Below, in pieces: positions 28,240-53,536 of a DNA stretch of 56,790 nucleotides (its first letter is position 1; every line of letters begins with the position of its first letter). The notes below the pieces were generated by a model that saw only the letters and a program-made list of their open reading frames with translations, had not been told where the DNA came from and ran no database searches. A program made the translations under genes and the position numbers. The stretch is from a virus, in IMG/VR virus record IMGVR_UViG_3300046820_001502, positions 1 through 56,790 of that record; one strand, 5' to 3'.

Positions 28240-28245
28240 CTCCGT

Positions 28246-30624
28246 TTAGAATTCTTTTCTTAAATTTCCTTCGTAGAACTCAAACCTATCATGTTCTGTT
28301 GGTGTCATCAAAAGAACTCCGGCATTAATTTTACCTTGTTTCATCTCTTTATAACAGTGAGACATTAAAGTTTGCTCGTAAGGATAAGTGAACTTAGTTT
28401 CGATATAACATTTGTAATTACCTTCTTGTGAAAGAATTATTGGCCAGTTAGACAAATAAACTTCACCTGTCGCATATGGAATACCGTCATAAATTTTTAT
28501 GTTTTTATATTCTAAATAAGGTGCGTTTGGATCTTGTCCGTTTACAGGTAATTTTGGATTGTCAGGCCAATGCTCATCTCTATATGCTTTGTCTACATTA
28601 TACCAAGCCCACTGTTTTTCATGACTACCATAAAACTCAGTAAAGTTGAACTTTAAAAAATCAAAGTTTTCTTTTCTTGTAATTTGTAAAACTTTTTCAT
28701 ATAAATTATTTGTTTTTCTTAAAAACCCATTTCTACAAGATGTTTCAGCTCCACCGTAGAAAAACATATCATCCTCAAAGAAAATATAATAATCCATGTC
28801 AGATTCATTAAAATGTTCGGCAACAAACACTCTACCACCTGTAATACCTATGTTATCTTTTTTAATGTGCTCAAATCCGTATTGTTCACAAAGTTCTAAG
28901 TATCGTGGTGTGGTTGATAGATCTGTTGAGTTATTTAGTAAAAACTTTTTAGTTCTTGTAAGAAAATCATTATCATATAACTCCATAGATCGTATTAGAG
29001 TTTCAAATTGTTTAGGACTATTAAATGTGATTACGTATAAACCAACATCTCCATTCTTTTTGATTTTAATCGGATCTTCTTTTCTAAAACTTTTAATAAC
29101 TACTGAATCATTTTTTACGTCCTCAAAAAACTTATAAAGTAATCCATTTGATTCGATTTCTACATAATCAATATTTTTTGGACTCGTATAAGTCATGATT
29201 GAAAATAAACTTTCTTCAGTACCCATCAAACCTCTGTTAAGTGTTGATTTCATTAGATCATAATACAAAGTATTCATTTCTCTAATCAAAGGTTTTGGTC
29301 CACCAAAAAATCCACCCCTACAAACTTTATTAACTCGTTGACCAACAAGTTCAGTCATAGAATTAATTTCAAAACCGTGGATCTCGTTGTCGGCTTCATA
29401 TGGGAATGCAACAAATGTAAAATTATCAAATAAGTTGTCTATTTTTGGTAATACATTATCGTGAGTAAAGTAACCTATATTAACTGTGTTGGCAATACCG
29501 GCATCTAACCAATATAATTTTTGGGAATTGAATTTGTCTAAAATAACCGCATCGTGCAGTAAAAACATTTTTGACATTACAAGAGGGTTATACATTTCTA
29601 ATTTGGCCTGTGTCGAATCTTTTAACCAACCCGCCAAATTATACCAATCAGGATTTGTTCTAATTTCTTGTATTTTATCGTAAAACTCTCCTTTGAACCA
29701 AGATTGATCTCTTAAAATGAATTGAGTATTTTCATGACTTCTTTTTGTAAATACAAAACTTTCTAATTCTGCATCACCAAAAATTATCATATTACAAGGA
29801 ATGTCTAAGAACTGTAAAAACTTTTCTAAATAATGTTGATACGATCTTGCCCATCCTTCAGTTAACCCATCTCTTTTGATATCCCATAAACCTGTAACTA
29901 ATGTAAGTTTTGAGTCTATTTTTTTTACAACTTCTTTTGGTTCTAAAGTTGCCTTAATTTCATCGTGTACGTCTTTTCTAATCGCATCAATATCCATATT
30001 ACCCAATATCTCATAAAGATAACCAGCCTCTGTTAACTTGTTTGTGATGTTAGTTTTTTCTTCGTCAGTCATATTACACCACTCTAACCGAATTAAACTT
30101 GGTCTAAACTTTCCTAAATCAATTTGTTTAAAGATTGTATAATCGTGTCCTTCAGTATCAACAGATAAAACATCAAAATGATCTATTCCGTGTTTTTGTA
30201 CTAATGTGTCCCAAGTAATACAATTAACCTCAACGTCAACGGCATATTTTTCAACAACTTCTCTATCACCTTCACTACCCATACCATTTTTAGATGGATC
30301 AATTACACTCATACCATAAAAAGCAGGATGAACTAAACCTTCGTCAACAACTTCGATTGGGATTGTTTTCATAGTTATAGTTCCATTAAAATCACTTACC
30401 GCAGAGTTTTCAAATTTGTTGCCAGGGTTATTACTCTTATGATTAACTAATCTCTCAAAATGAGGTTTCATAGGCTCAACATATAAAACATCCGAATTAT
30501 AGATTTGGGCGTATCCACTCATACTATCAAACATAACACCATCCATTGCTCCGATGTTAATCATAAATAATTTTTGGCCCTTTCTACCGTAATAATGTAA
30601 TACCTTATCAAAAAAATCTTCCAT
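28246..30624 (-). CDS. Three-domain enzyme: FkbM methyltransferase + HtrL/YibB-type + glycosyltransferase
   Basis: 792 residues. Residues about 1-210 are an FkbM-type SAM methyltransferase: INIGAMDGVMFD (22-33) for SAM binding and VLSVDTEGHDYTIF, the D-x-E-G-x-[DE] FkbM signature. Residues about 235-500 (LTLVTGLWDIKRDG, YWLDAGIANT, RGGFFGGP) resemble the HtrL/YibB family of putative glycosyltransferases. Residues about 520-792 have VGLYVITFNSPKQFETLIRS and FFEDDMFF (about 615), a GT2-like arrangement with a D-x-D metal site. The product probably transfers and O-methylates sugars. It follows the next HtrL gene by 9 bases and is the last enzyme of the block before an adhesin gene. Acceptors are unknown: phage virion protein or host glycan. 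Confidence 0.7.
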   Translation of the reverse strand: MEDFFDKVLHYYGRKGQKLFMINIGAMDGVMFDSMSGYAQIYNSDVLYVEPMKPHFERLVNHKSNNPGNKFENSAVSDFNGTITMKTIPIEVVDEGLVHPAFYGMSVIDPSKNGMGSEGDREVVEKYAVDVEVNCITWDTLVQKHGIDHFDVLSVDTEGHDYTIFKQIDLGKFRPSLIRLEWCNMTDEEKTNITNKLTEAGYLYEILGNMDIDAIRKDVHDEIKATLEPKEVVKKIDSKLTLVTGLWDIKRDGLTEGWARSYQHYLEKFLQFLDIPCNMIIFGDAELESFVFTKRSHENTQFILRDQSWFKGEFYDKIQEIRTNPDWYNLAGWLKDSTQAKLEMYNPLVMSKMFLLHDAVILDKFNSQKLYWLDAGIANTVNIGYFTHDNVLPKIDNLFDNFTFVAFPYEADNEIHGFEINSMTELVGQRVNKVCRGGFFGGPKPLIREMNTLYYDLMKSTLNRGLMGTEESLFSIMTYTSPKNIDYVEIESNGLLYKFFEDVKNDSVVIKSFRKEDPIKIKKNGDVGLYVITFNSPKQFETLIRSMELYDNDFLTRTKKFLLNNSTDLSTTPRYLELCEQYGFEHIKKDNIGITGGRVFVAEHFNESDMDYYIFFEDDMFFYGGAETSCRNGFLRKTNNLYEKVLQITRKENFDFLKFNFTEFYGSHEKQWAWYNVDKAYRDEHWPDNPKLPVNGQDPNAPYLEYKNIKIYDGIPYATGEVYLSNWPIILSQEGNYKCYIETKFTYPYEQTLMSHCYKEMKQGKINAGVLLMTPTEHDRFEFYEGNLRKEF

Positions 30625-30633
30625 ATCTAATTT

Positions 30634-31521
30634 TTAAATTCCTAATTCCGTCTCAAAAAAATGAACGAAGTGTGTTTTATTTTTAATTGATTCTCTATCG
30701 AAAACCGGAGTTGTGAGCCAAAAGTCTTCATGATACCAAGTATCAAAACTGAATGTTTTAAACATATCAGGATTTTCGAACTCTAAGTTTGTAATCATAC
30801 CTTCGTGATTTAATATATGATTTTCATTTAAACATAAATTACTTATTATATCAAATTCTTGTATGAACCATTTTATTTTTGAAATGTGTCCTCCCAAAAT
30901 ACCACCAACAGACATATGTTTATAATCATTATTATTTTTATAAACTTTTCTAATCTCATTTGGGTTATGTGAAAACATGGTATTTGCCAAGTTGATTAAT
31001 TTATCGCCAACCCAATTATTTATCTTTGGGAATAATTCAGGACAAAATATTTTTGTAAATGAATAGTTTTCCCAATCTCGAGATAAACCAGTAATCTTAT
31101 CGGAGTAAGGATTATATTTTAAGGTAAACAATCCTCTGTGAGATAAACCACAATCAATCCAATAAATGTAGTCATAGGATTCGTCGTATTCTTTTGAAAT
31201 AAGGTATATTTTATTCCAATCAACTTCATGGTAGAAATTAAATTGTTCGTTAGATTTTTTAATCTCTAACATTCTTTCCGTTTTTGGGTAGTCTTTAAGA
31301 TTTGAAATTTTAATCGTTACGTTATTTAAATTAAATTCCTCACAATATTTTTGTAACAAATCAAATTGAGTTTCATTACAATAACATATAATTTCATTAT
31401 TCATGTTATTTAATGTCCTTAAAGAATGTAAGTATCTTTCTTGTCTTGCAAATGACTCGTGACCAAAAAAAGGAAACCCAATAATATCGGTATAAAAGGC
31501 GGTTACTAGCTTTGTCTTCAT
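30634..31521 (-). CDS. HtrL/YibB-family putative glycosyltransferase
   Basis: 295 residues, starting KLVTAFYTDIIGFPFFGHES, then DYIYWIDCGLSHRG (about 137-150; the W-x-D-x-G site of the family) and HMSVGGILGG (about 201-210), corresponding to the GGFFGG block in the composite neighbour. This matches the WlaTC/HtrL family found in lipopolysaccharide and capsule clusters, presumed to be a nucleotide-sugar transferase with a GT-A fold. The donor cannot be told from sequence. Its ATG overlaps the carbamoyltransferase stop by 4 bases, indicating translational coupling, and 9 bases separate it from the three-domain enzyme, whose middle segment is a paralogue. Confidence 0.7.
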   Translation of the reverse strand: MKTKLVTAFYTDIIGFPFFGHESFARQERYLHSLRTLNNMNNEIICYCNETQFDLLQKYCEEFNLNNVTIKISNLKDYPKTERMLEIKKSNEQFNFYHEVDWNKIYLISKEYDESYDYIYWIDCGLSHRGLFTLKYNPYSDKITGLSRDWENYSFTKIFCPELFPKINNWVGDKLINLANTMFSHNPNEIRKVYKNNNDYKHMSVGGILGGHISKIKWFIQEFDIISNLCLNENHILNHEGMITNLEFENPDMFKTFSFDTWYHEDFWLTTPVFDRESIKNKTHFVHFFETELGI

Positions 31522-33095
31522 ATTCTTTTTCTAAAATAGTAATCACCTAATAAAAGACAATCCATTTCTGTTTTATCGTAAACCGAAATCGCATCACTAT
31601 ATCGAGAAAGTATTGGTTTTCCATTAACGTTGAACGATGTATTTAATAATACCCCTATACCTGATTGTTTCTCAAACTCAGTTAATAAATTGTATAACCA
31701 AGGGTTTTGTTCTTCAGTTACGGTTTGTACTCTTGCTGTACCATCTACGTGTGTAATTGAAACTAATTTTTCTCTCCACTCTTCTTTTACAGTAGGACAA
31801 AATCCCATCCACTTACTTTCACCCTCAAAATTAAAATATTTAGATACGTCTTCTAATTTACATACAGGGGCAAAAGGTCTATACCACTCTCTGTTTTTTA
31901 CTTTAGCATTTAATATATCTTTCATGTTATCATAAGCAGGATTACAAATAATACTTCTATTCCCTAAAGCTCTCGGACCATGTTCTGCATTACCTCTGAC
32001 AACACCAACAATTCTTCCATCTACTAAATCCTTAACTAACATTTCTGTCTCTAAAGGTAAAGCGTGTCTTTCCTCAACATGAGACATTAATGTATGTTTA
32101 TCTAAAATTGGAATACCTGCGTATGTAATGTCGATAGCCTTTTCAGGTTTAATATGATTTAACATCATTCCTGTTGCAATTCCACAATCATTTGGATTGG
32201 GTGGTACAAAAACTGGTCTATCAAGTTCTTGGTGTAACTTTGTGTTTAACAATATGTTTAATGCACAACCACCAACAAGTATTAAAGGTATATTTGGGTA
32301 TTGATCTAAAAATGGTATAGTTAACTCCATAAACACATTCTCAAATGCAATCTGAGAAGTTTTAGCAACATCCCAACCTATTTGACCCGTTAATCTATTT
32401 TCAAAATCAAAAGAAAGACCTGTTTGTTCTGCCAACTCATTTAAATAACCTAAGTAATTATTTCCGTCAGGTTTTTTTCTATAGTATTCTTCGAAGTGTG
32501 GCAACCAATCTTCATTAACATTACCATAAGAACAAAGTCCCATAATTTTTCCTGAGTAAACTAAATTACCAATATTAAGTGCCGGTTCTTTTGTAATATC
32601 ACCCAAGTAATCACCAAATGACATATATGGAAACCCTAAATCAGTATTAAATTTTTCAATAAGGTTTATGTTATTTCTGTCTTCCGCATGATACACATTA
32701 AAGAATCCATCATTACCTCCTCCATCAAATGAAATAATTAAAGCTTCGTTATAATCTGTTTGGTATAAACCACAAGCAGCATGGCTTAAATGGTGTAGTG
32801 AATTAATATATTCTTTTGCCGGTATTAACTCTTGATAATGAACCTTTGTTGTGTGTTCGATTGTATCCGCATTTAAGTAATAACATTTATCATATTCTGA
32901 AATTCCATATTCATCTTTAATAAATTGTAAAATATGTTTTAACAAAAAGGGTCTTGAGTATGAAATTAAATATTGTGCGTAACCTGCGTTTTTTTGGGTA
33001 AGAAATCTTTCGACTTCTATTACCACAATAATTTTTCCTTGATCCTCAACAACAACCGCAGAATTGTGAGATCCGTAAAATGAAATGTTTGCCAT
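31518..33095 (-). CDS. Carbamoyltransferase (NodU/CmcH family)
   Basis: 525 residues. The N-terminal Kae1-like domain shows HHLSHAACGLY (101-111) and ISFDGGGNDG (121-130), and in the middle LVGGCALNILLN, the metal/nucleotide pocket of this family. The C-terminal YrdC-like-to-transfer part has EHGPRALGNRSI, RPFAPV and FNVNGKPI. Members such as NodU, CmcH and TobZ use carbamoyl phosphate and ATP to place a carbamoyl group on a sugar or antibiotic hydroxyl. In this block it likely decorates a glycan made by the neighbouring transferases. It is 10 bases downstream of the GT60-like gene and overlaps the next by 4. No late-type TATTTAT precedes it. Confidence 0.9.
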   Translation of the reverse strand: MANISFYGSHNSAVVVEDQGKIIVVIEVERFLTQKNAGYAQYLISYSRPFLLKHILQFIKDEYGISEYDKCYYLNADTIEHTTKVHYQELIPAKEYINSLHHLSHAACGLYQTDYNEALIISFDGGGNDGFFNVYHAEDRNNINLIEKFNTDLGFPYMSFGDYLGDITKEPALNIGNLVYSGKIMGLCSYGNVNEDWLPHFEEYYRKKPDGNNYLGYLNELAEQTGLSFDFENRLTGQIGWDVAKTSQIAFENVFMELTIPFLDQYPNIPLILVGGCALNILLNTKLHQELDRPVFVPPNPNDCGIATGMMLNHIKPEKAIDITYAGIPILDKHTLMSHVEERHALPLETEMLVKDLVDGRIVGVVRGNAEHGPRALGNRSIICNPAYDNMKDILNAKVKNREWYRPFAPVCKLEDVSKYFNFEGESKWMGFCPTVKEEWREKLVSITHVDGTARVQTVTEEQNPWLYNLLTEFEKQSGIGVLLNTSFNVNGKPILSRYSDAISVYDKTEMDCLLLGDYYFRKRI

Positions 33096-33105
33096 TATTA
33101 TATTT

Positions 33106-34350
33106 TTATAAATTTCCTGTTATTCTATCACACCAACCTTTAGATGTTGAGTAAGGCCAAACAACCCAATATTTAGGTTTTTTAGTTGTATTGAATTCTC
33201 TCCATACTTTACAGTATCCATCAGGATCTCTAAAGAAACCGTTTATTTCATTAATATCTGCATCTCTTCTATATAAAGTTTCATCATTTTCATCGTGAAA
33301 AGCAACTACCCAATATTCATAATCTTTTTCAGGAACACTCACATAATTTACGTCTATACAGTGTTTGAAGATTGTTGAAAATGATTTCTTCCATTCCTCT
33401 TCTGTCTCGAAGTTATAGGTGTTTGGTGGATATTTTTTGTCAATTGTCTCTTGTTGGATTCCTCTTGACTCAAACAAAACACCAGCATATTTTTCATAGT
33501 CACTTACGGTTCTTTCAGTTCCAAACCATAAAGAATAATCTCCATCAAATTTTTCACCGTCAACTCCTAAAAGTTGTCTGTTTTTAATATGACAAGCTGT
33601 GTTTCTTAAATGCCAATCTTTGTCATCGTCCCACTGTTTAGTTCTACCTTTTCTTGTGTATTCGTGCCAAATTAAAACTTTGTGTGGATGGAATAAATCA
33701 TAACCATATGTATAAGCTCTTACTGAAATTGAAATTTCTTCTCCGTGAAAATAAAATTCAGGATCATGTTGAACTTCAGTTGAAAATTCACCTAAAGTAA
33801 AACAATAATGTGCTGAGTAAAATCTTGCAGGAACAGGTTGTTTCATTTCTTGCCAACCTGGAATTGATTCAGGCAAGAAGAATACAACACCTTCAGGTGT
33901 AAATCTATCAAATGCCATTCTCCATGGTTCTCTAACACGACCTTCAGGATCATTATCAGGATCAAATGATGAAACATATCCTGTTAAAAGAGGTTTTTTA
34001 TGTCCTTTCTTTTGAAGTTGTTTAATCATTTTAATCATTTCATCATCCCAATTCTTTTCGAATCTCATGTGAGAATCGATTTGAAGAGTATACTCCTCAC
34101 CACCATACAGTTGTTGGACTTGATGTCTTGCCCAACAAACCCCTTTTGATTCTGTGTAAGGAATATTTAGGATTCTAAATCTTTTATCTTTTTCATACTT
34201 AGATAAATCATCAAAACCATCTTCAGGATGGAATTGTCTTGCAACACCAATAATTACATTTTTTGGTCTTTTTGCGTTTTCCAACATATTTTCTATTGTT
34301 GGTATTAGTTGAGGGTCGCGATACGCAGCGATTTGTACAAATATTTTCAT
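33106..34350 (-). CDS. GT60-type (GlcNAc) glycosyltransferase acting on polypeptides
   Basis: 414 residues. It starts KIFVQIAAYRDPQLIPTIEN, then GVCWARHQVQQLYGGEEYTL and QIDSHMRF (D92-S-H94, the D-x-H/D-x-D-like metal site), followed by FYSAHYCFTLGEF and YFHGEEISISVRAYTYGYD. These are the marks of the GlcNAc (PF11397) family, whose characterised eukaryotic members are Dictyostelium Skp1 hydroxyproline GlcNAc transferase and Trypanosoma mucin Thr-GlcNAc transferases (CAZy GT60). The family assignment is confident from motifs; the phage acceptor is inferred. Because the phage also encodes many Thr-rich linkers, its own adhesins are plausible substrates. The gene follows the 100-residue small protein gene by 37 bases. 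Confidence 0.8.
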   Translation of the reverse strand: MKIFVQIAAYRDPQLIPTIENMLENAKRPKNVIIGVARQFHPEDGFDDLSKYEKDKRFRILNIPYTESKGVCWARHQVQQLYGGEEYTLQIDSHMRFEKNWDDEMIKMIKQLQKKGHKKPLLTGYVSSFDPDNDPEGRVREPWRMAFDRFTPEGVVFFLPESIPGWQEMKQPVPARFYSAHYCFTLGEFSTEVQHDPEFYFHGEEISISVRAYTYGYDLFHPHKVLIWHEYTRKGRTKQWDDDKDWHLRNTACHIKNRQLLGVDGEKFDGDYSLWFGTERTVSDYEKYAGVLFESRGIQQETIDKKYPPNTYNFETEEEWKKSFSTIFKHCIDVNYVSVPEKDYEYWVVAFHDENDETLYRRDADINEINGFFRDPDGYCKVWREFNTTKKPKYWVVWPYSTSKGWCDRITGNL

Positions 34351-34387
34351 AAAACAAAAATATTATACACATTCCAATAGTAAATTG

Positions 34388-34690
34388 TTAGGGACCTTCG
34401 AATAAATAAATCACATCATCTTGGAACATGAAGACCTCAAAGTCCTCAAATTGTTTACCATAAAGTATTCCACAACTTAGTAATACAAATTTTTCACAAC
34501 CTAAAGAATCAACAATTTTTAAAAGTAAAGATACAACATTATCAAGTGGTGGCGGAACAACAAATTGGTATGGAGTTACAATTGTTGTTGCACTTGAAAC
34601 TAAAAAACAATAAGTCAAAGTAACATCACAAACATAAATGTCATATGGTGAATTACCTGATATAGAATTTATTTGGATTATGTTTGCCAT
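34388..34690 (-). CDS. Small virion-associated protein of unknown function
   Basis: 100 residues: MANIIQINSISGNSPYDIYVCD, YCFLVSSATTIVTPYQFVVPPP (both partly quoted) and GCEKFVLLSCGILYG. It is beta-rich with four Cys and no signal peptide or helix-turn-helix. Similar short MAN-initiated proteins accompany fibre genes, and this one lies between a LamG-type adhesin and the sugar-enzyme genes with its own TATTTAT element 7 bases upstream, so I infer a small tail or fibre component. The hydrophobic stretch around residues 55-60 (VVSLLLKIV) is too short to be a membrane segment. Function not recognised. Confidence 0.5.
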   Translation of the reverse strand: MANIIQINSISGNSPYDIYVCDVTLTYCFLVSSATTIVTPYQFVVPPPLDNVVSLLLKIVDSLGCEKFVLLSCGILYGKQFEDFEVFMFQDDVIYLFEGP

Positions 34691-34697
34691 GATACTA

Positions 34698-34704
34698 ATA
34701 AATA
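34698..34704 (-). promoter_or_regulatory. TATTTAT late-promoter-like element
   Basis: TATTTAT on the coding strand, 7 bases before the ATG at 34690. Confidence 0.45.
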
Positions 34705-34736
34705 GTTATGATAAAATTATTTAAATTTCAAAAACC

Positions 34737-35720
34737 TTAAATGTATCTTGTATACGTATTGTTGTAATATTGTACGATATCAGAATTTGATAATGCAATA
34801 TCGTATATTAATACTTCACCAACATTACCTTGCAAATATTCATTACTTACTGTTTTTGCGATTTGTATCGCACTTGTTGTGACATTATGTCCTGAAGGTG
34901 TATCTGAACCAACTAAAACACCGTTAACCAATATACTTCTTGTTGTACCATCATATTTTACAACAGCATTAAACCACCCATTTGTTGGTGACACGGAACT
35001 TGTCACAACTAAATCATTACCCCACCAATAATTTATTACTTGATTAGTTCCTCCGGCTCTAAATGCATTTGATTGGTTACCAGTTCCAAATGAACCAACA
35101 CTCATAAATCCATTACCACCCCAATTAGTACCAAGTTGTACCCATATTATAAAAGTATAATCTGAGTTTCCTGTCGGTAAGTTAGTTCCTGATGGATTAC
35201 TAAACCATCCATTAGACCCTGTTGAGAAATAAACCGCTCCTGTATTATTCCAAGTTATACTACCTGAGTTTACCATGGTAACATCATTTCCATTACCACT
35301 TAAATCATACCAAGTAGTACCCGCACCTGAGTAACTATTAGGGTCGGCAGCATCTAAATGCAAACTTAAATTAGAAACGTATGAGGTCCAGTATCCTTGA
35401 TTGTTTAAATAAGTTTTACATTGACTTCCCGTTGTAAATGTTTGATTAAAAACTCCATTTACTAAGTTAACAAAAGATTGTTCTGTTTTAACTTTTGATC
35501 TCAAAAATCTAATATATGCCGGTACATTATCAGGATTAGGTTGATTACCAAAAAAGTTAGGTCTACATATAACATAACCCAAATCTTCATCAGGACCATT
35601 CCACCATCTTGGTAAACCTGTAAATCCTGTGGTTGGGAAACCTACCGCCAAGTCTCCAATCTGTAATGTTCCTGAAATTGTTGATCCTGTGTTAAAAGCA
35701 AAAGGTCTTGTTGTTGACAT
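34737..35720 (-). CDS. Tail fibre/adhesin with LamG-like lectin domain
   Basis: 327 residues. The first 115 (ISGTLQIGDLAVGF, RWWNGPDEDLGYVICRPNFF, PAYIRFLRSK) form a virion-attachment module. Residues about 118-327 are a concanavalin-like/LamG domain: LSLHLDAADPNSYSG, WYDLSGNGNDVTM, FTFIIWVQLG-like strand (YTFIIWVQLGTNW), WFNAVVKYDGTTRSILVNG and a final GNVGEVLIYDIALSNSDIVQ. This is the usual order of strands in phage and bacterial LamG-type sugar-binding domains. It probably binds a host surface glycan. A TATTTAT element lies 15 bases upstream. It stands between two glycosyltransferase genes. Confidence 0.75.
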   Translation of the reverse strand: MSTTRPFAFNTGSTISGTLQIGDLAVGFPTTGFTGLPRWWNGPDEDLGYVICRPNFFGNQPNPDNVPAYIRFLRSKVKTEQSFVNLVNGVFNQTFTTGSQCKTYLNNQGYWTSYVSNLSLHLDAADPNSYSGAGTTWYDLSGNGNDVTMVNSGSITWNNTGAVYFSTGSNGWFSNPSGTNLPTGNSDYTFIIWVQLGTNWGGNGFMSVGSFGTGNQSNAFRAGGTNQVINYWWGNDLVVTSSVSPTNGWFNAVVKYDGTTRSILVNGVLVGSDTPSGHNVTTSAIQIAKTVSNEYLQGNVGEVLIYDIALSNSDIVQYYNNTYTRYI

Positions 35721-35735
35721 TATTGTAGTTTAACA

Positions 35736-35742
35736 ATAAATA
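35736..35742 (-). promoter_or_regulatory. TATTTAT late-promoter-like element
   Basis: TATTTAT on the coding strand, 15 bases before the ATG of the LamG adhesin (35720). Confidence 0.5.
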
Positions 35743-35749
35743 TCATTAA

Positions 35750-36676
35750 CTACACTATTTCCAATACTTTGTTATAAACCGCAAATATTGTTGGGTGACA
35801 CTCAAATGTTTCTTTTCTTTCTAAACAATTAACTAAAGATGGGATGCCTTGTATTGATCCCCACTCTCTAACACCATATTTTATGTTGGAAGCGCAATTA
35901 AGACCACAACCACCAACAACATAATGGTATTTGTATTGTTGCGATCCTCGTCTAAATGGTGATCTAAACTCAGGATTTATAGAGCTACCTAATTGAATTA
36001 TTTCAGCATCTGTTGTTCCTGCCAAATGTAGTAAACCAGAATCCATGGTTATGAAACACATACTATTGTGAATTAAATGCCAAGCCTGATCCATATCCGT
36101 GTTGTTCATTAAATTTAAACCTAAGTTGATTGGAAAATTAAAAACAGGTTTATCAACATTAGATCCGCCAAGTTCTGAAGAATCTTTACCAATTGACACA
36201 ACCGCAATTCCTTTTTGATTTAAAAGTTTCGTTAACATTTGCCAATTTTTTGCATCCCAAGTTCTTGAGTTCCAATTTTGAACAGGATGTATTAAAACGT
36301 ATTTTTCAGGTAGACCCTCTATTTTTTCAATTGATTTTGGTATGTAATCCATCCCCATCTCATCTTTGGTTAACATAAACCCAAGATTGATTGCATGAAA
36401 TTGTCTAATATCCATGGCGTTATGTTTATAACAAACCCCATTTGGGTGATATCCAACATTAAATGAAACAAAGACTTCATGTGTTTCTTTTAATTCATCT
36501 GTAACTTCAGTAAAGATTTGATCAACACAAGGATTATTAGAAAATAAATATGGGTGGTGTGTTGCGACAGATATTTTTTTACCGTAAGAATAGTAAAGTT
36601 TTCTTAAAGTTGGTGTAACTGCTAAGGTATCACCTAACGCTCTACAACCTAATACATCAATACAAACATTTTTCAT
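35750..36676 (-). CDS. Heptosyltransferase-like glycosyltransferase (GT9 fold)
   Basis: 308 residues with a GT-B arrangement typical of GT9: LGCRALGDTLAVTPTLRKLY near the start (G-D-x-[LI] motif), HPVQNWNSRTWDAKNWQML (about 145-163; the H/S-x-x-x-x-x-[KR]-x-W donor region) and ITMDSGLLHLAGTT (about 214-227; D-S-G-x-x-H). The C-terminus carries GGCGLNCASN and later VNCLERKETFEC; a four-Cys arrangement like the iron site of TibC-type protein heptosyltransferases is possible, though spacing differs. It would move a heptose or similar sugar from a nucleotide donor. It is the first enzyme of the minus-strand block and is divergent from the 974-residue composite, which also holds a GT9-like domain. 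Confidence 0.8.
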   Translation of the reverse strand: MKNVCIDVLGCRALGDTLAVTPTLRKLYYSYGKKISVATHHPYLFSNNPCVDQIFTEVTDELKETHEVFVSFNVGYHPNGVCYKHNAMDIRQFHAINLGFMLTKDEMGMDYIPKSIEKIEGLPEKYVLIHPVQNWNSRTWDAKNWQMLTKLLNQKGIAVVSIGKDSSELGGSNVDKPVFNFPINLGLNLMNNTDMDQAWHLIHNSMCFITMDSGLLHLAGTTDAEIIQLGSSINPEFRSPFRRGSQQYKYHYVVGGCGLNCASNIKYGVREWGSIQGIPSLVNCLERKETFECHPTIFAVYNKVLEIV

Positions 36677-39691: not shown

Positions 39692-39725
39692 AAAAACCCC
39701 CATCTTTTCAGGTAGGGGTTTTTTT
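39692..39725. terminator. Bidirectional terminator between convergent genes
   Basis: AAAAACCCC (39692-39700) pairs with GGGGTTTTT (39715-39723) around a 14-base loop, in the 56-base gap between the composite transferase and the giant fibre. It has T runs on both strands and overlaps the fibre's stop region. Confidence 0.75.
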
Positions 39726-47000: not shown

Positions 47001-49302
47001 TAGTACCATTTGTACCTGATGTACCATTCGTTCCACTAGTTCCATTCGTTCCGTTTGTACCATTCGTTCCATTTGTCCCGCTAGTTCCATTAGTACCTGA
47101 TGTTCCGTTTGTTCCATTAGTACCCGACGTCCCGTTTGTTCCAGAAGTACCATTAGTACCGTTGGTACCGCTTGAACCATTTGTTCCATTCGTTCCCGAA
47201 GTTCCATTAGTACCTGATGTACCATTGGTTCCATTAGTACCTGAAGTTCCGTTTGTCCCATTCGTACCTGATGTACCATTTGTTCCCGAAGTTCCATTCG
47301 TACCATTCGTACCTGAAGTTCCATTTGTACCTGAGGTTCCGTTTGTTCCGTTTGTGCCCGATGACCCATTAGTTCCATTCGTACCGTTGGTACCATTTGT
47401 ACCTGAAGTCCCATTAGTTCCTGACGATCCATTTGTCCCATTAGTACCCGATGTCCCATTAGTACCCGATGTTCCGTTAGTACCGTTGGTTCCATTTGTT
47501 CCGTTAGTTCCATTTGTTCCGCTAGTACCGTTGGTTCCGTTTGTTCCATTCGTTCCGCTAGTTCCATTTGTACCTGAGGTTCCATTCGTTCCGTTTGTTC
47601 CTGATGTTCCATTAGTACCGTTTGTTCCTGAAGTTCCATTGGTACCACTTGAACCATTTGTTCCATTAGTACCGTTAGTTCCATTCGTACCTGATGTTCC
47701 GTTAGTCCCTGATGTACCATTTGTTCCATTTGTCCCTGAAGTACCATTAGTCCCGTTTGTTCCATTTGTACCTGAGGTACCATCAGCCCCACTTGTTCTA
47801 TAATATGTATTTCCGCTTGTATCAACAACAACAAATCTTGTTGCTCCTGAATTAATTGTAATGCCTGTAATACTTAACGCATCCGTAGTTGTTCTACCCG
47901 AACCATCAAAAGATATCTTATGAACTCCCGCACCATTTTTAATTTCTAACACCGGATCAGCATCAGACGCACTACCTCTTTGTATTGTAACCGCACCTAA
48001 TGTTGAATTAGTTATAATCTCAGGTTCAGATGAGTTATTATATGCTTGTTGTAAATTTGTTGTTGGACTACCTCCCGCAGCACCTACCACATCACCAAAT
48101 TTTGATACATTAAAGAATAACGCTTTTGCAGTATCTGTTAAGACAGTTGTGTCTTTTCTAAGAGAAAGTATTCCTATTAAAATGGCATCATTATTGAAAT
48201 TAGAAAATTCAACAAATTGTTCAGTTTGGATTCCAGCAACCGCCGCAGCCAAACTTGAATATGTTTGTTGTCCATATTGAACTCTAAACACACCATTTTG
48301 AACCAAATAAATTCTTTGGTTAGTTGAAGTTCCCCCTCCACCAGGTATAGTGGTGATAACACCATTCAAATCGTATTTTGTTGGATCAATAAATGTAGTG
48401 TTTGATGCCGTACCCCCTGTTTGTGTTCTATATTGAAATGTACATGGAGAGGTACCTGAAACGTATATTGTATCAGGTTGTAAAGGATTAGCAGCAAAGT
48501 TAATACCCAAACCATACAAATATTGTGCACTTGTGTTAAACCTTAAATTCGCACCATTTGCTGATGGATAGATACCCCCATTTATTAAGTTAATAGGAGT
48601 GAACATGTCACGAAGTTGTGACAATGGTGATTGGATAAAGTCAGGTTGACTAAACGCATTTATAATAGTTGTTTTGTCAGCATGTCCTAATTTACCTAAG
48701 AATATATTTTGTCTTCTTTGTGTCTCAGTTAAAGGAAGATTTGATTGTGAAAGTGTACCACCACTTGTTAAATAAATCCAACTTTCTGTATCAGTTGTTC
48801 TATATGTAGCACTATAAGTACCACCACTGTATGCGACATAATAAAGTTGCGGAAATAAAGGATTTGTAAAATCATCTACAACCCAACCTTTTACAGGTGC
48901 TACAGTAAATGTGGTTGGGGATGCAATACTTAAACCAGAAAATGAAAATACCCCTGTTGAGGAGTTAACACTTGAAATATTATATGCAATGGCAACCCAG
49001 TTTGAACCGTTACTTGCAAGTTGTAATGAATTTGTTTCCCCTAATACAACAAATGACTTATCATCAATATTCTGACCAGAATATGGTAATACAGTAACCG
49101 CACCACCACCATTATTTTTAATTACAATTAATCTACCCTGTTTTCCAACAGCTGTCTGTAGTTGAACGTTAAAGGTACCACCTGTAACGTCAATCATGTA
49201 ATCACTATCAGTAACAGTATAAGTACTGTTAATTGTAAGTTGGGGGAATGTTATACCACTAAGAGATTTAAGCCCATTACGGGCAACGAATTCATTTGCC
49301 AT
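39724..49302 (-). CDS. Giant collagen-like tail fibre with Cys-rich C-terminal repeats
   Basis: 3192 residues. Residues 1-500 form a fibre base: MANEFVARNGLKSL, then TYTVTDSDYMIDVTGGTF and IVIKNNGGGAVTVLP, a segment common at tail-fibre starts. Residues about 501-2530 are almost only G-T-N and G-T-S triplets, a collagen-type Gly-x-y repeat with Thr at x, Asn or Ser at y and almost no Pro. Near its end are seven 24-residue repeats containing GATGSPGTS. After a GTSGGGGG hinge come a beta domain (about 2540-2770) and six Cys-rich modules to the end. If triple-helical (0.286 nm per residue) the shaft would be about 0.58 micrometre. Every G-T-N-G-T gives an N-G-T sequon. Expression from a TATTTAT 58 bases upstream is possible. 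Fibre identity is strong; helix formation and glycosylation are inferred. Confidence 0.85.
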   Translation of the reverse strand: MANEFVARNGLKSLSGITFPQLTINSTYTVTDSDYMIDVTGGTFNVQLQTAVGKQGRLIVIKNNGGGAVTVLPYSGQNIDDKSFVVLGETNSLQLASNGSNWVAIAYNISSVNSSTGVFSFSGLSIASPTTFTVAPVKGWVVDDFTNPLFPQLYYVAYSGGTYSATYRTTDTESWIYLTSGGTLSQSNLPLTETQRRQNIFLGKLGHADKTTIINAFSQPDFIQSPLSQLRDMFTPINLINGGIYPSANGANLRFNTSAQYLYGLGINFAANPLQPDTIYVSGTSPCTFQYRTQTGGTASNTTFIDPTKYDLNGVITTIPGGGGTSTNQRIYLVQNGVFRVQYGQQTYSSLAAAVAGIQTEQFVEFSNFNNDAILIGILSLRKDTTVLTDTAKALFFNVSKFGDVVGAAGGSPTTNLQQAYNNSSEPEIITNSTLGAVTIQRGSASDADPVLEIKNGAGVHKISFDGSGRTTTDALSITGITINSGATRFVVVDTSGNTYYRTSGADGTSGTNGTNGTNGTSGTNGTNGTSGTNGTSGTNGTNGTNGTNGSSGTNGTSGTNGTNGTSGTNGTNGTSGTNGTSGTNGTNGTNGTSGTNGTNGTNGTNGTNGTSGTNGTSGTNGTNGSSGTNGTSGTNGTNGTNGTNGSSGTNGTNGTSGTNGTSGTNGTNGTSGTNGTSGTNGTNGTSGTNGTNGTSGTNGTSGTNGTNGSSGTNGTNGTSGTNGTSGTNGTNGTSGTNGTSGTNGTNGTNGTNGTSGTNGTSGTNGTNGTNGTNGTSGTNGTNGTNGTNGTSGTNGTNGTSGTNGTNGTSGTNGTNGTNGTNGTSGTNGTNGTSGTNGTNGTNGTSGTNGTSGTNGTNGSSGTNGTNGTSGTNGTSGTNGTNGTSGTNGTNGSSGTNGTNGTNGTSGTNGTSGTNGTNGTSGTNGTNGTNGTNGTSGTNGTSGTNGTSGTNGTNGTNGTNGTSGTNGTNGTNGTSGTNGTSGTNGTNGTNGTNGTSGTNGTNGTSGTNGTSGTNGTNGTSGTNGTNGTSGTNGTNGTNGTNGTSGTNGTNGTSGTNGTSGTNGTNGTSGTNGTNGSSGTNGTSGTNGTNGTSGTNGTNGTSGTNGTNGTSGTNGTSGTNGTNGTSGTNGTNGTNGTNGTSGTNGTSGTNGTNGTSGTNGTNGTSGTNGTNGTNGTNGTSGTNGTNGTSGTNGTNGTNGTNGTSGTNGTNGTSGTNGTSGTNGTNGTSGTNGTNGTSGTNGTSGTNGTSGTNGTNGTNGTNGTNGTSGTNGTNGTSGTNGTSGTNGTNGTSGTNGTNGTSGTNGTSGTNGTNGTSGTNGTNGTSGTNGTSGTNGTNGTSGTNGTNGTSGTNGTSGTNGTNGTSGTNGTNGTSGTNGTSGTNGTNGTSGTNGTNGSSGTNGTNGTSGTNGTSGTNGTNGTNGTNGTSGTNGTNGTSGTNGTNGTNGTSGTNGTSGTNGTNGTSGTNGTNGTSGTNGTNGTSGTNGTSGTNGTNGTSGTNGTSGTNGTNGTSGTNGTNGTNGTSGTNGTSGTNGTNGTSGTNGTNGTNGTNGTSGTNGTNGTSGTNGTSGTNGTNGTSGTNGTSGTNGTNGTSGTNGTNGTSGTNGTSGTNGTNGTSGTNGTSGTNGTNGSSGTNGTNGTSGTNGTSGTNGTSGTNGTNGTSGTNGTNGTSGTNGTSGTNGTNGTSGTNGTNGTSGTNGTNGTSGTNGTNGTSGTNGTSGTNGTNGTSGTNGTSGTNGTNGTSGTNGTNGTSGTNGTNGTNGTSGTNGTNGTSGTNGTSGTNGTNGTSGTNGTSGTNGTNGTNGTNGTSGTNGTSGTNGTSGTNGTSGTNGTSGTNGTNGTNGTNGTSGTNGTSGTNGTNGTNGTSGTNGTNGTSGTNGTSGTNGTNGTNGTNGTSGTNGTSGTNGTNGSSGTNGTNGTSGTNGTSGTNGTNGSSGTNGTSGTNGTNGTNGTSGTNGTNGSSGTNGTNGTNGTSGTNGTNGSSGTNGTSGTNGTNGTSGTNGTNGTSGTNGTSGTNGTNGTSGTNGTNGTSGTNGTNGTSGTNGTSGTNGTNGSSGTNGTNGTSGTNGTNGTNGTSGTNGTNGTSGTNGTSGTNGTNGTSGTNGTNGTSGTNGTSGTNGTNGSSGTNGTNGTSGTNGTSGTNGTSGTNGTNGTNGTNGTSGTNGTNGTSGTNGTNGTSGTNGTSGTNGTNGTSGTNGTSGTNGTNGTSGTNGTNGSSGTNGTSGTNGTNGTSGTNGTSGTNGTNGTNGTSGTNGTNGTSGTNGTSGTNGTNGTNGTSGTNGTNGTSGTNGTNGTNGTSGTNGTSGTNGTNGTSGTNGTSGTRGTSGTNGTNGTNGTSGTNGTNGTSGTNGTNGTNGTNGTSGTNGTNGATGSPGTSGTNGTNGTSGTNGTNGATGSPGTSGTNGTNGTSGTNGTNGATGSPGTSGTNGTNGTSGTNGTNGATGSPGTSGTNGTNGTSGTNGTNGATGSPGTSGTNGTNGTSGTNGTNGATGSPGTSGTNGTNGTSGTNGTNGATGSPGTSGTNGTNGSSGTSGGGGGAISIFDEGNLVQSSATSINFIGTCITATSGTSGSVNVTLTCTGGGGSCNIDNTLIASNSGKFKLTPQPDTNTNFLWMGSSECGWNGCPWDIGVPIRFSANPLRGDTAFLGVPSPVNVRAGDSIRLCGNVWWKINLSSYQPSFVVALYLYQCNDLGDLIPLTTVISPAYFNMTSNYLCFDVSHTFTQYYNACDIFYVVGFNIVQDADTPTQEPRFTYTLNYEKDCTIPDGEFYVLRNCCEPTVTEIIVGSSLTIGTFWSDAQDNCWEIESTTLAAPNSIRTLVTNYASCSSCISSNPCPDNAVIDSCCVTGLEYVTGSLDLVVGDTFVDDNGLCWNVTSGTGAPVTAPTITIGTTGYTNCDDCITTNECPEFWFINSCCKVLPQEIISIPAGTVSIGEIWIDTNGFCWVINTQVNQLPTNYSISLASQYFGGCEACKTANPCPEVVYVTIRNCCNPLQVEVYATQAFVPQTGTIFTDTNGVCWEVTSWDLTGTVSWPVPIYNSKQFDDCTQCRLDVGGCPDYYLFSACCETGVTQVAYGVFTIGLSYLEVISDNCYVCVSITTDTPTSNFYTDTPYDTCEKCLESNPCNYYEVYNCCLNTNQVVLAQGGMGFSGFYDPLTGVCFDFVSSSTGPATVSVGTITAQYSDCTTCIAAHACPA
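41705..47800 (-). repeat. 9-base-unit collagen-like repeat array (G-T-N/G-T-S)
   Basis: About 6.1 kb of GGN ACN (AAY or TCN) codons, with constant amino acids and highly variable third bases. Runs of N between S residues are usually one or two triplets, giving an irregular alternation with no single fixed period. Confidence 0.9.
41742..42245 (-). repeat. Seven 72-base tandem repeats with GATGSP unit
   Basis: Seven copies of a 24-residue unit (GTSGTNGTNGTSGTNGTN followed by GATGSP), nearly identical in DNA, unlike the codon-scrambled array upstream in the gene; they contain the only Pro codons of the collagen region. Confidence 0.8.
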
Positions 49303-49360: not shown

Positions 49361-49367
49361 ATAAATA
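49361..49367 (-). promoter_or_regulatory. TATTTAT element upstream of giant fibre
   Basis: TATTTAT on the coding strand, 58 bases before the ATG at 49302. The 118-base gap holds no other recognisable content. Confidence 0.35.
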
Positions 49368-49420
49368 TTTGTTAAGTAACGATTATTACCTAAAAAGAAA
49401 AATTAAATAAAAGATTGATT

Positions 49421-52400
49421 TTAGAATACAATTCTTGTAGCGACTAAGATGTCCCAAGTACCTCCAGTAATTGTTGCAATTAAATCAACAATACCTGCGG
49501 TTACTTGGACATTCCATTTAAGATTCGCGGTAGAACCATTCAAATCAGGTGATGACACATCAGTAAATGCGGCCCCCGCATTATCCCAAGTTGCATATAC
49601 TTGACCAACTCTTTTTTGACCTGCATTTCCTGTAATACAATATTCGAAGAACGCAGCACATCCAAAATCAGATCTAAATCTATCGATAGTGGTTGTTGTA
49701 GTTATACCTGTTGCGGTTTTAGTATTAACTTTATCGTAACTTCTATTTAGAGTTAATATACCGTCAGTTCCATTATATGTGAAATTAGTTTCTGCAACTA
49801 TTCCTCCCGAGCCGTCAGATGTTAGTATTTCATTATCCGAACCTGGTACTACAGGTGATGATCCGCTTGTACCATCAGTACCTGAAGTTCCATTTGTCCC
49901 TGACGTTCCATTAGTTCCGCTAGTACCATTTGTTCCTGACGTTCCGTTTGTTCCTGAAGTCCCATCTGTTCCATTAGTTCCTGAAGTCCCATCTGTTCCA
50001 TTAGTTCCTGAAGTACCGTTTGTTCCGTTAGTACCCGATGTCCCATCAGTACCTGAAGTTCCGTTAGTTCCATTTGTTCCCGAAGTCCCGTTAGTACCAT
50101 TCGTACCATTCGTACCATTCGTACCACTAGTACCATTAGTTCCGCTAGTACCATCAGTTCCATTAGTTCCTGATGTACCATTCGTACCATTAGTTCCATT
50201 TGTTCCTGAAGTACCGTTGGTTCCATTTGTTCCTGATGTACCATTAGTACCATTTGTTCCTGAAGTCCCATTAGTACCATCCGTACCATTCGTACCATTA
50301 GTTCCGCTTGTTCCGTTAGTTCCGTTAGTCCCATTTGTCCCCGAAGTACCATCAGTCCCGTTAGTACCTGATGTTCCGTTTGTACCATTTGTGCCTGAAG
50401 TTCCGTTGGTTCCATTAGTACCTGATGTTCCATCTGTTCCGTTAGTTCCATTAGTCCCCGAAGTTCCATCTGTTCCGTTAGTACCTGAAGTACCGTTGGT
50501 TCCGTTAGTACCTGAAGTACCATCTGTCCCATTAGTTCCGTTAGTCCCATTTGTACCAGAAGTCCCATCTGTTCCTGATGTTCCGTTAGTTCCATTTGTA
50601 CCGCTAGATCCATCTGTTCCGTTGGTTCCACTTGTACCATTAGTACCTGAAGTACCATTTACACCTGATATCCCACTAGTACCATCTGTCCCTGAAGTGC
50701 CGTTAGTTCCGCTAGTTCCATCTGTACCATTTGTACCATCGGTTCCTGAAGAGCCATTTGTCCCATCGGTTCCTGAAGAGCCATTTGTCCCATCGGTTCC
50801 TGAAGTTCCATTTGTCCCATCGGTTCCTGAAGTCCCATCTGTTCCGTCAACACCTGAAATACCACTTGTCCCATCTGTACCTGAAGTACCGTCTGTTCCA
50901 TTAGTCCCATCTGTTCCGCTTGAACCATTTGTTCCGTCAGTTCCACTTGTTCCATCTGTTCCATTTGTTCCTGAAGTCCCATCTGTTCCGTTTGTACCTG
51001 AGGTTCCATCTGTTCCATTTGTTCCTGAAGTCCCATCTGTTCCGTTTGTCCCCGAAGTACCATCTGTTCCGCTAGTACCATCAGTTCCATTCGTACCATT
51101 TGTTCCGCTAGTACCATCAGTTCCTGAACTTCCATCCGTACCATTTGTTCCGCTAGTACCATCAGTTCCATTCGTACCATTAGTTCCACTTGTTCCATTC
51201 GTACCACTTGATCCGTCTGTTCCATTAGTTCCCGAAGTTCCATCTGTTCCATTAGTTCCCGAAGTTCCGTCCGTTCCGTTTGTACCGCTTGAACCGTTTG
51301 TACCGCTTGAACCATTTGTTCCTGAAGTCCCATCTGTTCCATTTGTACCTGAAGTTCCATCCGTACCACTTGATCCATTTGTACCATCAGTTCCATCAGT
51401 CCCATTAGTACCTGAAGTTCCATCAGTCCCGTTTGTTCCACTAGTACCATCAGTACCCGAAGTACCATTTGTTCCGTCCGTACCGCTAGTACCATCAGTT
51501 CCATTTGTTCCACTAGTACCGTCTGTTCCATTTGTCCCTGAAGATCCATTTGTCCCATCTGTACCGCTAGTTCCATTTGTCCCATCTGTACCGCTAGTTC
51601 CGTCAGTACCATTAGTACCTGAAGTTCCATCTGTACCATCAGTTCCATTTGTACCACTAGTACCACTAGTACCATCTGTTCCATTTGTACCTGAAGTACC
51701 ATCTGTTCCATTTGTACCTGAAGTTCCATCTGTTCCACTTGAACCATCTGTACCATTCGTCCCACTAGTCCCATCAGTCCCTGAAGTCCCATCTGTCCCG
51801 TTAGTTCCGCTTGAACCATCTGTTCCGTCTGTCCCATTTGTACCCGAAGTACCATCTGTTCCGCTAGTTCCATCTGTACCATTAGTTCCGTCTGTACCTG
51901 AAGTACCATCTGTTCCATTTGTACCGTCAGTACCTGAGGTTCCATCTGTACCATTAGTTCCTGATGTACCATTAGTTCCTGATGTTCCGTTAGTACCATC
52001 TGTACCTGAAGTCCCATCTGTTCCATTTGTTCCGCTAGTCCCATCTGTTCCATTTGTTCCGCTAGTCCCATCTGTTCCATTTGTTCCGCTAGTTCCATCT
52101 GTACCATTTGTTCCGCTAGTTCCATCTGTACCATTTGTACCGTCAGTACCATTTGTTCCTGAAGTTCCGTCTGTTCCATCTGTTCCTGAAGTTCCATCTG
52201 TTCCATCTGTTCCTGAAGTTCCGTCTGTACCATTTGTACCCGAAGTCCCATCAGTACCATTTGTTCCATTTGTTCCATCTGTACCATTAGTTCCTGAAGT
52301 TCCGTCCGTACCACTAGTACCATCAGATCCATCTGTTCCGTTTGTACCACTTGAACCGTCAGTTCCATTAGTTCCCGACGTACCATTTGTTCCGTTAGTT

Positions 52401-53536
52401 CCTGATGTACCGTTGGTACCATTTGTTCCTGAAGTTCCGTTTACTCCAGATATACCACTTGTCCCATCAGTCCCTGAAGTTCCGTCTGTTCCGCTAGTCC
52501 CATCAGTTCCGTTTGTGCCTGATGATCCGTCTGTTCCGTTTGTGCCACTACTACCTGAAGTACCGTCTGTTCCGCTAGTTCCGTCTGTTCCGTTAGTTCC
52601 CGACGAACCGTCTGTTCCGTTAGTTCCCGACGAACCATCTGTACCATTTGTTCCGCTAGTTCCGTCTGTACCACTAGTCCCATCGGTTCCTGAAGTTCCA
52701 TCAGTCCCATTTGTACCCGAAGATCCATCAGTACCATTAGTTCCACTACTTCCATCAGTACCATTTGTACCTGACGTTCCATTTACACCTGATAATCCGC
52801 TTGTTCCATCTGTTCCGCTTGTTCCATCTGTTCCACTTGTTCCATCTGTTCCACTTGTTCCATCTGTTCCACTTGTTCCATCAGTTCCTGAAGTTCCGTC
52901 TGTTCCACTACTTCCGTCCGTACCATTTGTACCTGAAGACCCATCTGTCCCGTTAGTACCACTTGATCCATCAGTACCATTTGTTCCGCTAGTTCCATCT
53001 GACCCACTAGTTCCATCAGTTCCTGAAGTTCCATCTGTTCCTGAAGTTCCATCTGTTCCACTTGAACCTGAAGACCCACTTGAACCTGAAGACCCACTTG
53101 AACCTGAAGACCCACTCGATCCTGAAGATCCATTAGTTCCGTCTGTTCCACTTGATCCTGAAGATCCGCTTGAACCTGAAGACCCACTCGATCCTGAAGA
53201 TCCACTCGATCCTGATGAACCTGAACTACCTGATGAACCTGAACTACCTGATGAACCGCTTGATCCTGAACTACCTGATGAACCTGAACTACCTGCAGTT
53301 CCTGATCCACCACTTGTACCACTTGAACCATCTGTTCCTGAAGTACCGTCTGTACCTGAACTACCACTACTTCCTGTGGCACCACTTAAAATTGCCTGTA
53401 AATCACTTAAAGGAGCATAATAAGAAGAACCTTGTGGGCTCTGAGAAGTGTCTCCCGTAACAACTACGTGAAAAATATCGTTTAAGGTTACAGCTGAAAC
53501 CCTACTCCTGTCCGTTAATCTACTATATACTGGCAT
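49421..53536 (-). CDS. Second collagen-like tail fibre (G-S-S / G-T-D / G-T-N)
   Basis: 1371 residues. The first 50 (MPVYSRLTDRSRVSAVTLND ... DLQAILSG) are an attachment segment. Residues about 51-1228 are Gly triplets: G-S-S runs near the N-terminus, then G-T-D/G-T-S, shifting to G-T-N/G-T-S toward the C-terminus, with GISGVNGTS or GLSGVNGTS interruptions at several places. After SPVVPGSDNEILTSDGSGGI comes a 120-residue beta head (RFRSDFGCAAFFEYCITGNA, VGQVYATWDNAG, TGGTWDILVATRIVF), a pattern frequent at phage fibre tips. If triple-helical, the shaft would be about 0.34 micrometre. A TATTTAT lies 8 bases before the ATG. Confidence 0.85.
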   Translation of the reverse strand: MPVYSRLTDRSRVSAVTLNDIFHVVVTGDTSQSPQGSSYYAPLSDLQAILSGATGSSGSSGTDGTSGTDGSSGTSGGSGTAGSSGSSGSSGSSGSSGSSGSSGSSGSSGSSGSSGSSGSSGSSGSSGSSGTDGTNGSSGSSGSSGSSGSSGSSGSSGSSGTDGTSGTDGTSGTDGTSGSDGTSGTNGTDGSSGTNGTDGSSGTNGTDGSSGTDGTSGTDGTSGTDGTSGTDGTSGTDGTSGTDGTSGLSGVNGTSGTNGTDGSSGTNGTDGSSGTNGTDGTSGTDGTSGTDGTSGTNGTDGSSGTNGTDGSSGTNGTDGTSGTDGTSGSSGTNGTDGSSGTNGTDGTSGTDGTSGTDGTSGISGVNGTSGTNGTNGTSGTNGTNGTSGTNGTDGSSGTNGTDGSDGTSGTDGTSGTNGTDGTNGTNGTDGTSGTNGTDGTSGTDGTDGTSGTDGTDGTSGTNGTDGTNGTDGTSGTNGTDGTSGTNGTDGTSGTNGTDGTSGTNGTDGTSGTDGTNGTSGTNGTSGTNGTDGTSGTDGTNGTDGTSGTDGTNGTDGTSGTDGTSGTNGTDGTDGSSGTNGTDGTSGTDGTSGTNGTDGSSGTDGTSGTNGTDGTSGTNGTDGTSGTSGTNGTDGTDGTSGTNGTDGTSGTDGTNGTSGTDGTNGSSGTNGTDGTSGTNGTDGTSGTDGTNGTSGTDGTSGTNGTDGTSGTNGTDGTDGTNGSSGTDGTSGTNGTDGTSGTNGSSGTNGSSGTNGTDGTSGTNGTDGTSGTNGTDGSSGTNGTSGTNGTNGTDGTSGTNGTDGSSGTDGTSGTNGTNGTDGTSGTDGTSGTNGTDGTSGTNGTDGTSGTNGTDGTSGTNGTDGTSGTDGTNGSSGTDGTNGTDGTSGTDGTSGISGVDGTDGTSGTDGTNGTSGTDGTNGSSGTDGTNGSSGTDGTNGTDGTSGTNGTSGTDGTSGISGVNGTSGTNGTSGTNGTDGSSGTNGTNGTSGTDGTSGTNGTNGTNGTDGTSGTNGTNGTSGTNGTDGTSGTNGTNGTDGTSGTNGTNGTSGTNGTNGTSGTNGTDGTSGTNGTNGTNGTSGTNGTNGTDGTNGTSGTNGTNGTSGTNGTNGTSGTNGTNGTNGTSGTNGTDGTSGTNGTSGTNGTNGTNGTNGTSGTNGTNGTSGTDGTSGTNGTNGTSGTNGTDGTSGTNGTDGTSGTNGTSGTNGTSGTNGTSGTNGTSGTDGTSGSSPVVPGSDNEILTSDGSGGIVAETNFTYNGTDGILTLNRSYDKVNTKTATGITTTTTIDRFRSDFGCAAFFEYCITGNAGQKRVGQVYATWDNAGAAFTDVSSPDLNGSTANLKWNVQVTAGIVDLIATITGGTWDILVATRIVF
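49857..53387 (-). repeat. 9-base-unit collagen-like repeat array (G-S-S/G-T-D/G-T-N)
   Basis: About 3.5 kb of GGN (ACN or TCN) (AAY, GAY or TCN) codons with a composition gradient along the protein: Ser-rich at the N-terminal end, Asp-rich in the middle, Asn-rich at the C-terminal end. Confidence 0.9.

Follow-up and report, generated by a model that had tools for sequence, protein, structure and literature searches.

Protein glycosylation is well known in eukaryotic giant viruses and is documented for very few phages. Virion glycosylation has been described in mycobacteriophages (PMC12619734, citing Freeman et al. 2023). For the jumbo phage XacN1, a proteomic study of the virion (public set PXD008065) reported two or more glycoproteins, and its authors suggested ORF328 and ORF334 as their makers (PMC5852040). 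The GT60 family includes Gnt1, which adds alpha-GlcNAc to a hydroxyproline of Skp1, and a polypeptide GlcNAc-transferase of T. cruzi (PMC6939170), and TibC, characterized by the residue Asp110 and by four iron-finger cysteines, heptosylates autotransporter adhesins (PMC4358343). The HtrL/YibB family is listed in Pfam as being of "unknown function". A survey of large aquatic phages reports four core putative glycosyltransferases and assigns them no target. A literature search returned no paper that links GT60 with phages and, judged by title and abstract, none about phage TibC.

Sugar-enzyme genes among adhesins and fibres

The window, i.e., the whole stretch of DNA that was analysed, is a 56.8-kb IMG/VR virus record with 35% G+C, derived from a large contractile-tailed freshwater phage that encodes a T4-type baseplate protein (6911-7681), a tail sheath (9259-12594, minus strand) and a family-B DNA polymerase (19889-22720). 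Between 28246 and 39667, profile searches identify six sugar-enzyme genes, whose products comprise about ten catalytic domains; the preliminary description had placed at least six such genes between tail adhesins and giant fibres, and each family is confirmed by profile, as is the location between adhesins and the giant collagen-like fibres by the gene positions. From 22807 to 36676, every gene lies on the minus strand, and the enzyme and adhesin genes are packed with gaps of -4 to 46 bp.

The GT60 glycosyltransferase (33106-34350, minus; PF11397, 8e-69) is the fixed left-hand gene of the frame described below. It scores 233 bits against a gathering score of 21, the DSH motif is kept in 19/19 aligned GT60 members, and the enzyme formerly called GT60-like is a true GT60 (PF11397). 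Its AlphaFold model (mean pLDDT 56.6) is too poor to judge the fold and gives uninformative fold matches, and a PDB sequence search with the GT60 and YibB-GT profiles gave no match. Downstream of it lies an O-carbamoyltransferase of the TobZ/NodU family (31518-33095, minus; PF16861 4.5e-63, phrog_1601 3e-118), which is a member of the variable cassette, followed by two proteins that had been assigned to the HtrL/YibB type, the first by gene position of which (30634-31521, minus, 295 aa) has no direct match in Pfam or in the profile libraries. The other (28246-30624, minus, 792 aa) combines an FkbM methyltransferase, an HtrL_YibB domain (PF09612, E 3.7e-10) and a C-terminal GT-A-like domain, an extra domain absent from the preliminary description; its YibB-GT part is the fixed right-hand gene of the frame. 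The YibB domain reaches 55.9 bits with TIGR02192, under the equivalog cut-off of 264.9, and is therefore a relative of YibB rather than an equivalog. The family profile of the 295-aa protein matches this domain in a profile-profile comparison (hhalign, 97.7% probability, E 1.7e-12), so that both assignments hold, one by PF09612 and the other through its neighbour. A structural model of the YibB domain (window 28249-29907) matches GT6 enzymes of the GT-A fold (Z 11.4, rmsd 3.7 over 193 residues), and the model of the C-terminal part of YibB-GT is weak.

At the other end of the operon, a GT9 gene of the heptosyltransferase family (35750-36676, minus; PF01075 5e-14) is divergent from, and separated by 66 bp from, the gene of a 974-aa composite of GT4, TibC (BAHT) and FkbM (36743-39667, plus). 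The TibC domain, at about residues 407-748, is the strongest single call (TIGR04414, 297.3 bits against an equivalog cut-off of 200; PDB 4rap, phmmer E 3.5e-72), which upholds the composite as first described, and the equivalents of Asp110 and of the iron-finger residues Cys339/342/358/370 are all kept in its alignment.

Adhesin-like genes are interleaved with the enzymes. They encode a 100-aa protein (34388-34690, minus), whose family adjoins GT60 or fibres in many loci, a laminin-G/ConA-like lectin-domain adhesin within the sugar operon (34737-35720, minus), and two Thr/Pro-linker proteins that are candidate acceptors, namely a 525-aa protein with two long linkers lying 12 bp downstream of the cassette (26656-28233, minus) and an adhesin-like virion protein with a linker (22807-23649, minus). 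Beyond the composite, two further candidate acceptors are a 3192-aa tail fibre (39724-49302, minus) with 675 Gly-x-x triplets (GTN/GTS) in an array at 41716-47790 that contains 7 Pro, and a 1371-aa collagen-like fibre (49421-53536, minus) with a 383-triplet array (GTN/GTD/GTS) at 49856-53302 that contains no Pro. The two giant fibres hold 788 + 357 Thr and 519 + 131 Asn, about 1,800 Thr and Asn together, the "thousands" of the preliminary description being a slight overstatement. They are followed by a 156-aa candidate acceptor consisting mostly of Thr/Pro linker (53615-54085, minus) and by a virion-like protein of 729 aa, in which the Thr/Pro linker is short (54046-56235, minus). At a threshold of at least 14 T+P in 25 residues, linkers are present in five proteins of the window (the tail sheath and those starting at 22807, 26656, 53615 and 54046) rather than in the six or more counted earlier; residue shuffling yields a maximum T+P of 11, against 19 observed in that run. 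The tail sheath, a candidate acceptor outside the 28246-53536 interval, is an odd place for its Thr-run/Pro segment, which is inserted near residues 290-325.

TATTTAT is more frequent than any other 7-mer in the 60 nt that precede starts on the coding strand, being found at 17/30 ORFs (shuffles: mean 1.9, maximum 7), for example at 4906, 8284, 12628, 23663, 26034, 53544 and 56246. It precedes virion genes, the GT60 gene and the lectin gene, which suggests their shared, probably late, expression, and it is a candidate promoter motif distinct from that of T4 late genes. The T4 late promoter TATAAATA itself is not enriched (12 against 9.2 expected), whereas its reverse complement TATTTAT is.

Frame and cassette in related loci

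Relatives of the GT60 enzyme occur in 213 viral contigs, the best 80 of the 213 at 73-93% identity. In 62 dereplicated loci, the order is one or more linker or collagen-like proteins, GT60, a cassette of 0-9 ORFs, YibB-GT, a protein of the Thr/Pro-linker family and usually the DNA polymerase. Specifically, Thr/Pro linkers lie inside the locus in 58/62 cases, the ORF directly upstream of GT60 encodes a linker or collagen-like protein in 39/61 (against 132/875 ORFs overall), and YibB-GT comes after GT60 in 53/62, with a family member of the linker protein 22807-23649 directly beyond it in 48 of these 53. The cassette ORFs, which are all on the same strand (164/164), form 57 clusters, and their Pfam content comprises GT2, GT7, GT10, GT11, GT25, GT34 and PLOD-type glycosyltransferase domains, FkbM and other methyltransferases, two sulfotransferase families, a HAD hydrolase and a carbamoyltransferase; the GT25 cluster alone has 18 members across 53 cassettes. 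GT60 is conserved above the phage DNA polymerase in 45/59 loci. The constant gene order, together with the varied cassette clusters, indicates a fixed frame with varying decoration. Separately, the PLOD-type (collagen glucosyltransferase-like) and GT25 enzymes of the relatives' cassettes can be seen at L011:3902-4597, L013:11965-12702 and L013:11251-11961.

A wider generalization, which may prove right or wrong with about equal probability, is that a modular virion-glycosylation locus is widespread in large aquatic phages, in which an invariant GT60 primer and YibB-GT extender frame a fast-exchanged cassette of glycosyl-, methyl-, sulfo- and carbamoyltransferases, so that the glycan carried by the Thr/Pro linkers would differ from phage to phage, and a second system, built on TibC, would serve the collagen-like fibres. 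If true, it would be a counterpart, in phages, of O-antigen or flagellin-glycan variation.

Among 50,697 phage records, GT60 is found in three, those of XacN1, RAS14 and CM1, and all of them contain a GT60-CarbT-YibB-[YibB-GT] block in the same order; in XacN1, ORF334 is the GT60 orthologue, and ORF333, ORF332 and ORF330 make up the remainder. The DNA polymerases of these phages belong to the RaK2-like/T4 group and none is found by the polymerase of the window, to which they are not detectably related; a block common to unrelated replication lineages either moves as a functional unit or persists as one. In each of the two jumbo-phage regions examined, a Thr/Pro linker is found in a giant protein longer than 3,000 residues, and XacN1 also has a 654-aa linker protein; ORF325 and ORF350 are linker proteins of XacN1. 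The glycoproteins reported from XacN1 proteomics are the experimental link to this block, and ORF334 (GT60) is one of the two makers suggested by the authors. In XacN1, tblastn detects no TibC composite, and the 41-kb region examined contains no collagen-like array.

Relatives of TibC are encoded by 260 viral contigs, with the Cys pattern present in 77 of the best 80 phage TibC loci and the LGD motif in 83/83 motif-bearing ORFs. Next to many viral TibC genes, the other strand carries a very long collagen-like gene, and a collagen-like gene is located within two genes of TibC in 13/44 dereplicated loci, many TibC loci ending early at contig ends, against 0/43 control loci, such genes numbering 25/505 overall. 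AIDA/BAHT-type target repeats are not detected by Pfam in the nine virion proteins or segments scanned. GT60 tracks Thr/Pro linkers and the TibC composite tracks collagen-like genes, and the linker acceptors and the collagen-array acceptors must be kept separate. TibC-type domains are also present in the Microcystis phage Mel-JY01 (L177) and in the 735-kb uncultured phage LR756501 (L178). Some TibC phages encode GmhA-like proteins (the records behind L126, 373 kb, and L120) and, in the L126 record, an HldE-II-like protein, all below cut-off, and it is possible that such phages make their own ADP-heptose.

Candidate acceptors and competing explanations

The association of GT60 with Thr/Pro linkers extends beyond the lineage of the window. 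The TPTPTPT codon pattern occurs 16, 6 and 6 times in the three GT60-positive jumbo phages and 0 times in 16 GT60-negative records (14 retrieved with the polymerase, two other Xanthomonas phages among them, plus two TibC phages; Fisher p 0.001), although this 3/3 versus 0/16 contrast amounts to one or two evolutionary events, because RAS14 and CM1 are near-identical. The association is hence partly phylogenetic, the GT60-positive jumbo set representing one or two lineages. The pattern is also present in 15/15 large records of the window lineage or of its TibC relatives. Moreover, viral contigs picked only by a Thr/Pro-repeat pattern encode GT60 in 12/49 cases, against 0/49 for Pro-Lys/Glu-repeat controls (Fisher p 2e-4); the other 37/49, many of which are fragments, are without it. 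Some of the GT60 enzymes from Thr/Pro-picked contigs are 38-41% identical to that of the window and lie beside linker genes in other neighbourhoods, and three distant GT60 loci (L435-L437; 27-33% identity) have no linker nearby.

The best explanation, and a probable one, is that the phage encodes a system for the glycosylation of its own virion proteins. This idea, advanced in the preliminary description, is strengthened by the synteny with linker and fibre proteins, by the recurrence of the block in XacN1, RAS14 and CM1, by the GT60/Thr-Pro co-occurrence in separate lineages, by the TibC score above its cut-off, by the glycoproteins reported for XacN1, and by the packing with adhesin genes and the TATTTAT motif that GT60 has in common with virion genes. 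Gene content, family membership and conserved architecture are observed, and the enzyme genes are linked to structural genes and co-vary with a candidate acceptor. Against the idea count the Thr/Pro-picked contigs that do not encode GT60, the three GT60 loci with no linker nearby and the lack of a BAHT-type target repeat among the virion proteins scanned by Pfam. For the acceptor residues, the sugars, the order of the steps and the benefit, we infer the following scheme from the enzyme families. GT60 most likely primes the glycan by adding a first sugar, GlcNAc by family, onto Thr of the adhesin Thr/Pro linkers; YibB-GT, with its two GT-A-type domains, and the second YibB would extend it; and the cassette enzymes would cap it, through carbamoylation and perhaps methylation here and through fucosyl-, galactosyl-, sulfo- and methyltransferases in the relatives. 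GT9 and the GT4-TibC-FkbM composite probably modify Ser/Thr of the giant collagen-like fibres, whose arrays are Thr/Ser-rich and nearly Pro-free, and this modification would be cytoplasmic and precede assembly, as for TibC on autotransporters. Soluble glycosylating enzymes can reach the phage proteins, for which the cytoplasm is the site of both synthesis and assembly. The benefit may lie in shielding, linker stiffening, protease resistance or the tuning of adhesion.

The T. cruzi GT60 enzyme uses Thr as its acceptor. A hydroxyproline route for GT60 is not general, given that a PF13640 2OG-Fe(II) oxygenase is above cut-off in 1/10 of the GT60/TibC genomes tested, and its lack in most near-complete GT60-positive relatives makes Thr the likelier acceptor.

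The main rival holds that the enzymes alter the host surface polysaccharide (LPS/LOS/capsule) during infection, either blocking superinfection or releasing progeny, and that the proximity of fibre genes reflects a shared host-recognition island. This is how a pelagimyophage island with tail fibres and glycosyltransferases has been read (PMC7029224), and it would account for the families that count against virion glycosylation, as GT9, GT4, GT25, FkbM, the carbamoyltransferase and YibB are also known from LPS/LOS loci, htrL appearing in a study of A. baumannii outer-core loci (PMC4172580); a hypervariable cassette would likewise suit changing host surfaces. However, the two most diagnostic enzymes, GT60 and TibC, belong to protein-modifying families, and the action of their characterized members on proteins counts for the glycosylation of virion proteins; an invariant GT60, better conserved than the polymerase, is unlike a host-specific trait; GT60 tracks the linkers in unrelated phages; and glycoproteins have been reported for XacN1. 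Modification of the host surface is thus unlikely as an explanation of the whole locus, and possible for part of the cassette. Far less probable is the action of the enzymes on a host protein, such as a surface adhesin or a pilin receptor: TibC-family enzymes usually act on bacterial surface adhesins (PMC4358343), but it is the phage's own linker proteins that adjoin the enzymes, and from phage to phage they co-vary with GT60. Lastly, hypermodification of phage DNA by the carbamoyltransferase and glycosyltransferases (e.g., to carbamoylated or glycosylated hydroxymethylcytosine) is hardly credible. In its favour, 5-carbamoyloxymethylcytosine is made by a carbamoyltransferase that belongs to the same Pfam family and comes from a phage contig. 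However, that enzyme pairs with an Asp177 thymidylate-synthase homologue, and it is the carbamoyltransferases of unmodified contigs that, like the one in the window, have glycosyltransferases on either side (PMC8670742); moreover, every thymidylate-synthase homologue read (in RAS14, which has the carbamoyltransferase, and in five large relatives) carries Asn instead of Asp177, the window fragment contains no gene for such a homologue, and the search for a 5hmC glucosyltransferase gave no convincing match (best PHROG E 0.07).

Comparison with known systems

Virion glycosylation is already known in mycobacteriophages and suspected in XacN1, and the enzyme set and modular architecture presented here are, as far as the literature was searched, undescribed. 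If the self-glycosylation of virion proteins is true, hundreds of freshwater phages devote a hypervariable glycan locus to their own adhesins, the usual annotation of phage glycosyltransferases as LPS- or DNA-modifying has to be reconsidered, a role as a GT-A glycosyltransferase becomes likely for the HtrL/YibB family, and portable enzymes become available to glycosylate Thr/Pro linkers.

At the level of single enzymes, the GT60 of the window shares the Pfam family PF11397 with the protein alpha-GlcNAc-transferases Gnt1 (acting on Skp1) and that of T. cruzi (PMC6939170) and, unlike these, it is viral, and most of its near-complete GT60-positive relatives are without a PF13640-type hydroxylase gene. 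Similarly, the TibC domain belongs to the sequence family of the TibC/AAH autotransporter heptosyltransferases (BAHT; PMC4358343, PDB 4rap), with the catalytic Asp110 and the four-Cys iron finger in common, but the phage TibC is fused between GT4 and FkbM, the window encodes no autotransporter and the acceptor is presumably a fibre.

At the level of whole systems, XacN1 has the orthologous block beside a giant Thr/Pro-linker protein and at least two glycoproteins reported from proteomics (PMC5852040), although its replication lineage is unrelated to that of the window. Giant eukaryotic viruses also glycosylate their own fibres or capsid with their own enzymes (the PBCV-1 capsid; mimivirus L230 on collagen-like proteins; PMC4691112), a likeness that extends to the PLOD-type glycosyltransferase domains in the relatives' cassettes, whereas the window comes from a bacterial virus with a different enzyme set and no lysyl hydroxylase seen. 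Mycobacteriophages likewise modify their own structural proteins with phage-encoded enzymes and, as cited in PMC12619734, bear glycans at the C-termini of capsid and tail-tube subunits; the locus described here instead relies on GT60, TibC and YibB-GT, with linkers and fibres as the proposed acceptors and a swappable cassette that would set the decoration.
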